Assembly: GCA_012729675.1 (NCBI GenBank)
Contig: JAAYCR010000067.1
Span: forward strand, 1 to 44,011
From: Phycisphaerae bacterium
GTDB lineage: Bacteria; Planctomycetota; Phycisphaerae; Sedimentisphaerales; Anaerohalosphaeraceae
Direction of reading: 5' to 3'
Length of the DNA: 44,011 bases
Below the pieces are notes generated by a model that saw only the letters and a list, made by a program, of their open reading frames with translations, was not told the DNA's origin and ran no database searches. The translations under genes and the position numbers were made by a program. Positions 125-20,800 of this stretch are shown piece after piece (within the stretch, counting starts at the first letter, position 1; the number at the start of each line of letters is the position of its first letter).

Positions 125-281
125 CTATATTTCCTCAGGCTTACAGAGGCAGGCCTTTTTTTTTGGAAACGCGGCCGCATTCTATGCAAAAATACTCCGC
201 GTCTTTGACCAACTCCCTAAATTTGCCGGGTTTTTCTTTCAGCATTTTCTTTTTTGTCAATTCGCAGATTATTTTGCTCAT
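125..281 (-). CDS. Small zinc-ribbon-like protein with apparent frameshift at an A9 run
   Basis: The ATG at 281 has a very good ribosome binding site (GAGGTGA, 5 nt spacer) and lies 44 nt after the ppk stop on the same strand, so it is probably the last gene of that operon. Read straight, it gives 46 residues with a stop at 141-143; a CIEC motif sits at residues 32-35, then a KKK run encoded by nine A (156-164). If one A is dropped, the frame continues to a stop at 125-127 and the end becomes KKKACLCKPEEI, adding two more cysteines (CxC). From memory this resembles short PVC-type proteins that end in a Cys-Gly-Arg ... Lys-Lys-Lys ... Cys-Lys-Pro pattern. I infer that the 51-residue shifted form is the functional protein. 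Either the A run carries a sequence error or mutation, or slippage produces both forms. Function unknown; a bound zinc ion is inferred from the cysteines. Confidence 0.6.
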
Positions 282-2445: not shown

Positions 2446-4038
2446 TTAGGTTCCTTCAAAATCAAGTCGAATGCCGAACACGTTTTCGAACATATCGCTG
2501 CGCATTTCAAGCGATCGCTTGCGCAGTGAGATGTTGGCCAGACCCGGCACAAAGATTGTCATTGCATCCGGTTCCAGCCGAAGCTTCAATTGATCGGCCT
2601 GACGAACATCGCTGATATCGAGCGCTTTGGCCAATTGTAAAATCGCCGCCAGCTTGTTGACGACGATGCGGCTTTCCTGCGGCAGGCTCATATATTCCAG
2701 ATGTGACGGCTTTGGCGCACTGCGGCGATGATACCGCGCCACATGCGCGACAATCTGCACCTCGTGGTGATTGAGGCCGTAAATTTCGCTGTTGGCCACC
2801 AGATAATAGGTATGCTTATGATAGGCTCGCGAGGCGACAAACGTACCCGCCTCGTGCAGCAGGGCCGCCGCTTCCAGCAGGACGCGGTGACGCGGCCCCA
2901 GCCCGTGTTCGCGCGTCAGCTCGTCAAACAGCCGCACCGCACAGTCCGCGACGCGCTGAGCGTGCAGCAGGTTGACTTTGTATTTTTCTGCAATCGACAG
3001 CGCCGATTGAATGACCTCGCGGCCAAAGCCGGGGTCTTCCTGCTTTTGCGAGCGGCGGGCCAGTTCCAGCAGCAGCCCGTCCCGCATCGTAATTGATGCG
3101 ACGACCACCTTGGCGGCCCCGGTCTCGTGCAGCAGCGTCTGGTATATCATCAACGCCGGGGCCAGCGTCTCGGCGTCGTTGTAGCCCATGCTGAACTGCA
3201 CCATCAACTGCTCAATCGACAGTGTTCGAATGGTATCGACGAATTTGTCAAACGCCTTGCGCGAAATCGCCGAGAATTTATGATTGGGAAGTTGGCGTCC
3301 CGCGCGGGCGGCGGCAAACCGGGCGTCCGAGCCGATGATGAACAGGTTGCGTATAGACTTCAGCGCGATCAGGCCTTCCAGCGAGGCCAGCGTGGCGTTG
3401 ACCTCGTTTTGAATCAACTCGCTCGTCGGTTCGGAGGACTGCTCACCGGTGCCGAGTATTTCCTGCAGCCGGATGGAGCCCAAGCCCAGGTTGTGCGAGG
3501 CCTCGATACTGCCGCGATTAAGAACCGTTAGTATCGTTCCGCCGCCCCCGACCTCGCAGATCAGCGTATGTTTTCCCAATGACGGCGGCTTGTCATTGAG
3601 TGCCGCACGCACGGCCGTCACCGTCAGGCGGCCTTCCTGCGGGCCGTCGATGATGTCCACCGTCAGCCCCGTCGCCATCAGGACGCGGTCGCAAAAGACA
3701 TCGGCGTTGCGGGCTTCGCGGAGGGCGCTGGTGGCAACCGTCCAGACGTGCTTGACCTTGTACAGTTCGAGCATACGCTTAAACTCGCGCAGGATGGAGA
3801 CCGCCGCCTGCATCGTTGTGCGTTCCAGCCGCCCCTTGCGAAACGAATCCTGACCGAGGCGTACCGTGCGGTAGGCCTTTTCGAGGATGTCGATGCGTCC
3901 GTCCGGCGTCAATTGCCCGATCAGCAGGCGAATCGAGTTGGTGCCGATGTCGATGGCCGCCAGCGTTTGTGCCTCCGGCGGCGTTTCTGTCTTCTCTGTC
4001 TGTGTCATTTGAGCCAATTGTGTCTCTTGCGGGGTCAT
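2446..4038 (-). CDS. ppx: Exopolyphosphatase / Ppx-GppA family phosphatase
   Basis: The 530-residue protein carries the ASKHA-fold phosphate-binding motif AIDIGTNSIRLLI at residues 28-40 and a second conserved segment LICEVGGGGTILTVL. These are typical of Ppx/GppA enzymes that release phosphate from polyphosphate or hydrolyse pppGpp. The last 170 residues or so form an HD-like domain, but its motif reads HE instead of HD and the later metal Asp is Lys (QLAKALD), so that domain is probably not catalytic; E. coli Ppx also has HE at this place as I recall. It sits between the stand-alone HD gene and ppk1. Which of the two substrates it prefers cannot be read from sequence; context argues for polyphosphate. 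Confidence 0.93.
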   Translation of the reverse strand: MTPQETQLAQMTQTEKTETPPEAQTLAAIDIGTNSIRLLIGQLTPDGRIDILEKAYRTVRLGQDSFRKGRLERTTMQAAVSILREFKRMLELYKVKHVWTVATSALREARNADVFCDRVLMATGLTVDIIDGPQEGRLTVTAVRAALNDKPPSLGKHTLICEVGGGGTILTVLNRGSIEASHNLGLGSIRLQEILGTGEQSSEPTSELIQNEVNATLASLEGLIALKSIRNLFIIGSDARFAAARAGRQLPNHKFSAISRKAFDKFVDTIRTLSIEQLMVQFSMGYNDAETLAPALMIYQTLLHETGAAKVVVASITMRDGLLLELARRSQKQEDPGFGREVIQSALSIAEKYKVNLLHAQRVADCAVRLFDELTREHGLGPRHRVLLEAAALLHEAGTFVASRAYHKHTYYLVANSEIYGLNHHEVQIVAHVARYHRRSAPKPSHLEYMSLPQESRIVVNKLAAILQLAKALDISDVRQADQLKLRLEPDAMTIFVPGLANISLRKRSLEMRSDMFENVFGIRLDFEGT

Positions 4039-4057: not shown

Positions 4058-4675
4058 TTAGGGTTTGATTAGCGTTTTCGAAAGTTTCACGTCGCGCCCG
4101 AAGACCTGTTCCAGCAGATCCGCCTTAGTCTTGCCGAAGTGCAGCTCGTCCTCGGCGGGTCCGTGCGTGTGGCATACGAGATGGATTTGTTCGACCTCAA
4201 GGGTTACCTCAATCTCCTCGACGGCGTCGGTGTGGCTGCGATCCAGTCCGTCAGCCAGCCGCAGGATCGCGGCCAGTTTATCGACGACGCTTTTCCGGTC
4301 TTCGGGTAAGTCGGTATACACTGTATGCGTCGGCTTGGGCAGCGCCTTGCGATGATACCGCGCGACCAGTGCGATGGCCGCACGCTCGTCGGGCGTCAGC
4401 GGAAGCGTCCGGTCGTCCAGAATCATCCGCATCGACTGCTTATGATGCCCTTTCTGGCCGTCGATCCAGCCGATATCGTGAAGGATGCCCGCACAGGTCA
4501 GCCAAAACCGTGCCGTCTCGTCCAGCCCGTGCAGCGGTCGCAGCCCGTCAAACAGCATCTCGGCCAGGCGCGTCACCTGCTCCGAGTGCCCTTTTTCATA
4601 GCAGCAGGCCGTCGCAAACCGTCGCACCGCCTTTAGCCGTGCCTTATTGTCCAAGTTCGAAGTCCTCTTCGTCAT
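4058..4675 (-). CDS. Stand-alone HD-domain phosphohydrolase related to the Ppx C-terminal domain
   Basis: About 205 residues. It is clearly related to the C-terminal domain of the neighbouring Ppx (shared VARYHR...P and KLAAIL stretches) but keeps the metal ligands that Ppx has lost: His31, His67-Asp68 in ILHDIG, His78/79, His109 and Asp143 in RLADGLD. It is therefore likely an active metal-dependent phosphohydrolase, with unknown substrate (nucleotide, polyphosphate or alarmone are all possible). The start is placed at the ATG at 4675, 8 nt after GGA; an upstream GTG at 4678 is the alternative. Its 5' end overlaps the 3' end of the CHAD gene by about 30 bp, which suggests translational coupling. 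Confidence 0.85.
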   Translation of the reverse strand: MTKRTSNLDNKARLKAVRRFATACCYEKGHSEQVTRLAEMLFDGLRPLHGLDETARFWLTCAGILHDIGWIDGQKGHHKQSMRMILDDRTLPLTPDERAAIALVARYHRKALPKPTHTVYTDLPEDRKSVVDKLAAILRLADGLDRSHTDAVEEIEVTLEVEQIHLVCHTHGPAEDELHFGKTKADLLEQVFGRDVKLSKTLIKP

Positions 4676-5732
4676 CACTATCGTCCGTGGTGTTTAATAT
4701 TTCAGCGTTTTCTTTAACCGCCTCGCCGATCCGGTTCCAGAAATCCTCGGCCTCCAGTATTTCGACATGCGCTGCGGTCTGTTCAAGCAACGCTTCCCGC
4801 CGCTGACGCTGCTGCGTCTGCAAATAGCGCAATCCCGTGACCAGCCGCCGCATCGGGCGGGGGTGGCCATAAAACGCGATGGCACGCTCGGTCTCTTCAG
4901 CGATAAATGCCTCAATCTGCTCGTCCCAGACATCGCAGTCGTGCAGGTCGCCCAGCAGGGTCTGGAGCTTTTTGAGATGCTTGACGAGTTTTTTGAGCCG
5001 CCCGTCCAGCGCCATATCGCACAACTCCAGCGTGTATCGCAACTTTTTGACCGCGATGCGCAGGGCGTGATGGCCTGCCATATCGTTCGGATCGTCGAGG
5101 GCGGGGCGTTTGTCCAGCGTCTCGGCCAGCCGGTCGCCGACCCGCACGGCCGCCCGCTCATAAAAACCCAGTCGCTCGGTCGGTTCGTCGGTGTGTTCGA
5201 CCTCATACGCAAGCCGCTCGGTCTCCAAATGCAGATGCATTGTCAGCCGCTGCCTCTGGAGCCGCCGCACGGCCATGACAAGCCCTGGCTGAAGCGCATC
5301 ACGCTGCTGCTGCAAGCGCAGCAACAATCGGGCAATGCCGGGGCGAATGGAATGGGCATTGAATTTTGTGAAGGCTGCATCCAATACAGCATCGGTTGAG
5401 CTTGATGTGGACACCTCGGATTGGTGCCGGTCCAGCCCCGCCAAAAAATCCTGTAAAAACGTGATCTGCACGTCACAGTCCCTCGCCGGGCCGAACCGTT
5501 TGAGCATCTTCTTGAGCGCCTTACGCCAGCCCTTGGCCTTGTCGTCGTCAAAGCAATCGCTGAAAAACGCCAGCCCCGCCCGCAGCCGCCGACAGGTCAC
5601 CCGCACCTGGTGCACATCTTCGATATCGCCGCCGGTCTTGGCGCCGTCCAGATGCCCGGCCAGCGCCTCGGCCTGTGTCCGCACAAACCGCCGCACCAAC
5701 GCGCACAACACATTGTCCGGTAAACGTTGCAT
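4644..5732 (-). CDS. CHAD domain protein (polyphosphate-binding)
   Basis: The protein of about 362 residues shows the CHAD pattern: regularly spaced His/Arg/Lys-rich helices such as DVHQVRVTCRRLRAGL, RDCDVQITFL, HHALRIAVKKLRYTLEL and LGDLHDCDVWDEQI. CHAD domains bind polyphosphate and occur on polyP granules. It is the first gene of an operon with an HD protein, ppx and ppk1, which fits that role. The start is set at the ATG at 5732; the longer frame would begin with a TTG that lies inside the -35 box of the likely promoter. The C-terminal tail is acidic (DDSDDEEDFE). Confidence 0.88.
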   Translation of the reverse strand: MQRLPDNVLCALVRRFVRTQAEALAGHLDGAKTGGDIEDVHQVRVTCRRLRAGLAFFSDCFDDDKAKGWRKALKKMLKRFGPARDCDVQITFLQDFLAGLDRHQSEVSTSSSTDAVLDAAFTKFNAHSIRPGIARLLLRLQQQRDALQPGLVMAVRRLQRQRLTMHLHLETERLAYEVEHTDEPTERLGFYERAAVRVGDRLAETLDKRPALDDPNDMAGHHALRIAVKKLRYTLELCDMALDGRLKKLVKHLKKLQTLLGDLHDCDVWDEQIEAFIAEETERAIAFYGHPRPMRRLVTGLRYLQTQQRQRREALLEQTAAHVEILEAEDFWNRIGEAVKENAEILNTTDDSDDEEDFELGQ

Positions 5733-5775
5733 CGCTGGGTTCTCGTTTCTCCACACAAATCTGGTATTCAGATAT

Positions 5776-5804
5776 AGTATAAGAGATTCCGGAATAAGAC
5801 GCAA
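5776..5804 (-). promoter_or_regulatory. Sigma70-type promoter of the CHAD-HD-ppx-ppk operon
   Basis: On the minus strand TTGCGT and TATACT are separated by exactly 17 nt. The predicted transcript would start near 5769, about 37 nt before the CHAD start codon. Confidence 0.6.
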
Positions 5805-20647: not shown

Positions 20648-20800
20648 TGCATCCTTACATATAACCGTAAATATTGCTCGATAATATCCTGACTTTATAT
20701 TAAGTGTTCTATTTTACTCTCGTTGCATACAGATTTGTACCTTTTTTTTTCCCACCTGTCCGGAAAGACCAATCGGCGGGATAGGGCCTTGTGCAATAAA

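Follow-up and report, generated by a model that had tools for sequence, protein, structure and literature searches.

A probable recent frameshift in a four-Cys mini-gene at the end of a polyphosphate operon, with an insertion sequence in its stop codon

A run of nine A's (A9) is a known slip length from the dnaX gene of Thermus thermophilus (PMC1088944), where the A's are those of the sense strand, close to the 3' end of the coding sequence. In the endosymbionts Buchnera and Blochmannia poly(A) frameshifts are rescued by slippage, and corrected transcripts are reported to make up 12-50% for endosymbiont poly(A) frameshifts (PMC5009743). A stem-loop immediately preceding the slip site leads to the loss of one base in the IS630 transposase of Roseiflexus (PMC5009743), while on homopolymers the Escherichia coli RNA polymerase seldom deletes, additions being commoner (PMC5574713, PMC6260861). 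Tracts of eight or nine A's are also known as sites of phase variation (PMC2831843). The insertion sequences (IS) of the ISL3 family, finally, share a PF01610 transposase, GGCTCTT-type ends and 8-bp AT-rich target duplications.

Here we analyze a mini-gene with an A9 run from a Phycisphaerae bacterium. The window, by which we mean the whole stretch of 44,011 nucleotides analyzed, is all of contig C58 in a genome of 2.80 Mb and 96 contigs, and it ends inside an IS; it holds one end of an ISL3-family copy with no notable difference from the family. Like T. thermophilus dnaX, the mini-gene has its A9 close to the 3' end, on the sense strand; however, dnaX has a template of the length that encodes its long product in frame, whereas the long product of the mini-gene needs a lost A, and slippage in the mini-gene comes without support from conservation. 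With the Roseiflexus transposase it shares a hairpin, here a predicted one, that closely precedes the putative slip site, and one base to lose, but there the slip site is a T5C5 sequence in an IS and was experimentally shown, whereas the mini-gene is part of a chromosomal operon in a single genome. As in Buchnera and Blochmannia, a long A run is followed by the intact old frame, although the host genome (54% GC in the sample) is neither AT-rich nor reduced. The reading that we prefer, and hold to be on balance probable, is that one added A recently disabled the mini-gene closing a CHAD-HD-ppx-ppk operon and that the IS was inserted separately. A frameshift as such is ordinary, and so is an IS insertion.

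Reading frame of the mini-gene

The mini-gene starts with ATG 44 nt downstream of the ppk stop (Table 1). As sequenced, it is an ORF with the translation MSKIICELTKKKMLKEKPGKFRELVKDAEYFCIECGRVSKKKGLPL, the final sense codons of which come after the slippery run of at least nine A/T that marks the frame transition, here the A9. The first-pass annotation regarded this 46-codon gene, with its excellent ribosome-binding site, as truncated and one A fewer as giving 51 residues, and this we can confirm: removal of one A leads to a 51-aa form with the C-terminus ...VSKKKACLCKPEEI and a TAG stop at 127-125. Runs of at least nine A's are scarce, with about 10 in 691 kb of sampled genome; AAGAAGAAA stands for the interrupted version of the run.

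Table 1 Features of the mini-gene region at the end of the window.
Feature	Positions	Strand	Basis
End of multi-copy ISL3-family IS, terminal sequence GGCTCTTCGGAATAATTTGTGGGT, transposase 5' side	1-125	minus	repeated contig ends
A8-frame gene, 51 aa, C6/C32/C35/C46, stop TAG at 125-127	125-281	minus	HMM, ortholog alignment, empty-site TAA
8-bp target-site duplication GAAATATA, covering the final two codons and the TA of the stop	126-133	minus	same 8 bp on C61
Sequenced short ORF (A9 reading), 46 aa, fourth conserved Cys missing	141-281	minus	ORF reading and homolog comparison
A9 run, frame-break point	156-164	minus	sequence
Predicted RNA hairpin, 38 nt, -17.3 kcal/mol	167-204	minus	fold prediction, z -3.4
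GAGGTG ribosome-binding site of mini-gene	288-293	minus	sequence
Polyphosphate kinase (ppk1)	326-2431	minus	Pfam PP_kinase domains
Exopolyphosphatase Ppx/GppA	2446-4038	minus	Pfam
HD / Ppx-GppA domain III-like protein	4058-4678	minus	Pfam
CHAD-domain protein	4644-5804	minus	Pfam

A set of 77 intact relatives was read and used for building a family profile. An open frame reaches the conserved C-terminus in 77/77, so that the comparison of homologs in both frames, as proposed earlier, has the relatives ending like the long form. The gap from the CxxC motif to the last Cys is exactly 10 residues in 76/77 relatives, the same gap as is given by a run of eight A's (A8), and in 72/77 the first Cys precedes the CxxC by exactly 26 positions; the window shows both spacings with A8 only. 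The complete C-x25-CxxC-x10-C spacing with the LCxPxxL tail likewise requires A8, as the last Cys is missing when the sequenced A9 is read. Scored with the profile, the A8 reading obtained 63.5 bits, compared with 58.3 for A11, 56.9 for A5, 50.3 for A9 and 49.8 for A10, and among 4000 random tails from the window (best of three frames) only 2 reached 63.5 bits, both of them from the gene itself. Because of these scores and the random-tail test the match of the A8 frame to the family is more than chance. DNA alignment with four ppk-linked orthologs places one extra base at the run, and the bases 3' of the run still encode the undamaged conserved tail. From these comparisons we infer that A8 is the ancestral reading frame.

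The short form was rejected as the true gene, as no intact homolog ends that way. Ribosomal -1 frameshifting was rejected as a rescue, since here it leads to the A10 reading (VSKKKRPASVSLRKYRLFGIICG) and not to the conserved tail. The A9 run was found in none of the 77 relatives; the conserved A8/A9 run that had been looked for in related genomes is absent, the relatives having at most eight A's at this site, all in frame. The idea of both forms being made from one gene thereby loses its comparative basis, as 77/77 relatives are in one frame, which speaks against a regulated two-product gene. The exact A8 allele was absent from the viral contigs searched, the search for a close ortholog that could date the event gave a best identity of about 45%, and in the three same-genus genomes neither a ppk match at E <= 1e-30 nor a match to the DNA of the ppk region was found.

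An insertion sequence in the stop codon

Positions 1-125 of the window recur at eleven other contig ends with 98-100% identity; the similarity breaks off sharply at 125, and the flanks are unrelated. The same IS end is found in a relative ahead of a transposase with the PF01610 domain (DDE_Tnp_ISL3; 416 residues scanned, E 8e-74), and transposase 3' ends 86-87% identical to the relative's element are found at 16 contig ends of the host genome, giving a copy number of approximately 16 when judged by the ends. Contigs carrying IS 5' and 3' ends were paired by identical flanking 8 bp, which resulted in six pairs (C58-C61, C50-C65, C54-C39, C27-C78, C33-C68, and C20-C15). In the first of these, the GAAATATA beside the IS end of the window also follows the other IS end on C61. 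Both the PF01610 transposase and the 8-bp target-site duplication are those of the ISL3 family. A plasmid search with the IS end gave nothing useful. The same element explains many of the contig breaks in the assembly (C50, C54, C27, C33, C20, C34, C16, C18, C31, C6, and others).

The mini-gene lies at a contig end, and the IS is inserted in its own stop codon, which the first-pass annotation had no means of seeing. The TAG of the long form is a composite, with TA coming from the gene and G (position 125) being the first base of the IS. On the gene strand, the reconstructed empty site reads TGT AAG CCT GAG GAA ATA TAA with the junction between TA and the final A, or ...CKPEEI-TAA in the A8 frame. 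This TAA stands five residues past the last Cys, which is the usual C-terminus of the family, and it therefore gives independent support for the gene being in the A8 frame. The insertion changed TAA to TAG and, as the target duplication shows, left the A8-frame protein unchanged, making this a clean case of a stop-codon IS insertion whose empty site fixes the ancestral frame independently.

The four-Cys family and the polyphosphate operon

The invariant positions of the family are C6, C32, C35, G36 and C46, and the short form, being without C46, is therefore without a likely metal ligand. Given that Pfam, NCBIfam and PDB returned no credible match, it is from the Cys pattern that the mini-protein is judged to be probably zinc- or metal-binding. 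The first-pass annotation had called the protein a zinc ribbon, a name that fails in the strict sense: the classical zinc ribbon has two CxxC/CPxC knuckles, whereas we find one CxxC together with the lone Cys 6 and Cys 46. Nor is the restored part a second Cys pair, since only C46 is family-wide and C44 is an extra shared with no more than a few ppk-linked relatives. The Pfam/NCBIfam search gave no credible match (in Pfam no model above cutoff). For an ortholog from genome G127 a confident structure model was obtained (pLDDT 89.6), and a fold search with this model gave no PDB match. PDB sequence matches to Cys-rich zinc fingers and to eL43 were not credible as family or structure identity. 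The family is apparently undescribed. According to searches of relatives it is widespread in the order of the host and sparse elsewhere in the class, and the copies elsewhere, approximately 100, are nearly all intact. Another subgroup is repeatedly found linked to a transglutaminase-like gene (L004, L006, L010, L016, L017, L032, and others), and this is a second conserved neighbourhood of the four-Cys family.

The operon has the order CHAD, HD/Ppx-domain III-like, ppx, ppk, mini-gene. The next gene, on the partner contig C61, is convergent with the mini-gene, which therefore ends the operon, in agreement with the earlier proposal. Ten other genomes contain a ppk-adjacent family member, nine of them intact (L008, L014, L024, L074, L075, L076, L078, L080, and L081) and one decayed; eight are on the same strand as ppk at distances of 14-124 nt, one is on the opposite strand, and the tenth is the decayed copy. 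The latter (L029, G090:C168, about 1430-1640) has suffered several lesions, so the family can be lost in other lineages too. In two further genomes CHAD/HD genes adjoin a family member. In the family tree, which is built on few columns and has a long branch, the A8 form groups with the ppk/CHAD-linked rows with support 90/84; by this placement and by the same position after ppk it belongs to the ppk-linked subgroup. With a Cys family whose ppk-adjacent subgroup extends over these ten other genomes and the two with CHAD/HD, it is a reasonable guess that the four-Cys mini-protein may act in polyphosphate metabolism.

Origin of the ninth A

According to the reading preferred here, an A8 ancestor would have gained one A in the homopolymer, and the resulting A9 allele lacks both the conserved LCxPxxL tail and the fourth ligand Cys, leaving a zero-frame product that should not fold around a metal. 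The ISL3-family element would have entered the stop codon as a separate event. As the tail behind the run is intact, the break must be very recent, or there was no break at all.

The latter would apply if the ninth A arose as an error of assembly or consensus calling, with A8 as the true sequence and an ordinary intact family member of 51 residues as the gene. Such an error would agree with the difference being one base in a homopolymer that lies close to a contig end and 31 nt from the repeat edge, and with the undamaged tail, but the ending of contigs about 125 nt into the repeat suggests a short-read k-mer assembly, where homopolymer errors are rare. A homopolymer survey of 691 kb of sampled genome stretches (54% GC) disclosed no convincing A/T-run frameshift among approximately 290 A runs of at least 7, and the A runs of 7-10 found elsewhere, including A9 and A10, sit in intact ORFs. 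In a 106 kb homologous alignment with proteins from relatives there was one doubtful frameshift site. The idea that the assembly suffers generally from homopolymer errors was rejected, as no such tendency was seen in the sampled stretches. The sole frameshift match of the census (L112) looks like an antisense reading.

The genome has only one other family member, located on contig C65 (L003, 1459-1629) beside a transglutaminase-like gene. It is frameshifted as well, with A5 reduced to A4 compared to two intact same-genus orthologs and Tyr replacing the last Cys. The differences in this copy are still mostly at third positions, which means that its loss is also recent. With 2/2 copies broken in the host and nearly all of those elsewhere intact, loss of function in the host lineage is indicated. 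Under error alone, the independent frameshift in a second family member would be a coincidence. The survey and the two broken copies in one genome thus favour a recent real frameshift, and we consider an assembly error unlikely, though a serious alternative.

The predicted hairpin ends 2 nt 5' of the first A and is the strongest fold in the mini-gene. Its stability was equalled by 3.7% of random 45-mers from the genome with a stem ending as close and matched by 0.8% of synonymous recodings, and it ranked 2 among the upstream folds of 74 runs of at least eight A's in the sample, all of these being post hoc tests made with the site already seen. The relatives showed no conservation of the hairpin, as only 2/77 fold as strongly. 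An unusual hairpin just 5' of the run fits a slippage signal and counts against a plain broken gene.

It would be put to use by productive transcriptional slippage, in which the polymerase skips one A at the A9 with the help of the hairpin and both forms, or mainly the long one, are made on purpose. Strong slipping occurs on the A9 of Thermus dnaX (PMC1088944), and the stem-loop of the Roseiflexus IS630 drives one-base loss (PMC5009743), the direction needed here. We nevertheless find such a design rather improbable: run and hairpin are unconserved, none of the intact relatives is out of frame, the hairpin was singled out after the fact, one-base loss is rare compared with gain in E. coli (PMC5574713, PMC6260861), and the paralog is simply broken. 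Its extreme form, where stem-loop and A9 would cause one A to be dropped so often that the mini-protein normally depends on slippage alone for its production, in a chromosomal, non-mobile setting, seems improbable as well; if true, it would be a rare non-mobile example of hairpin-driven RNA polymerase slippage. Judging from other bacteria, slippage of RNA polymerase on the A9 of a gene broken by the added A may still turn a minority of the transcripts into A8. The gene may thus be leaky and not null, and there is a fair chance of such a leaky rescue of the full-length product.

Alternatively, the gene could be phase-variable, with replication slippage switching it on as A8 and off as A9, and the assembly having caught the off state. 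A8/A9 tracts are indeed sites of this kind (PMC2831843) and the sequence 3' of the run is fully intact, but switches of this type are expected less at a position as close to the 3' end as that of the run, the gene does not obviously belong to the surface or restriction genes, and the relatives are without a long run at the site, making phase variation an improbable explanation.

Read on the plus strand, the run is a T9 preceded by a weak hairpin (137-156), and its role as a terminator was judged to be chance. A second T9 run is present in the window at 20742-20750, between secA and the next gene.
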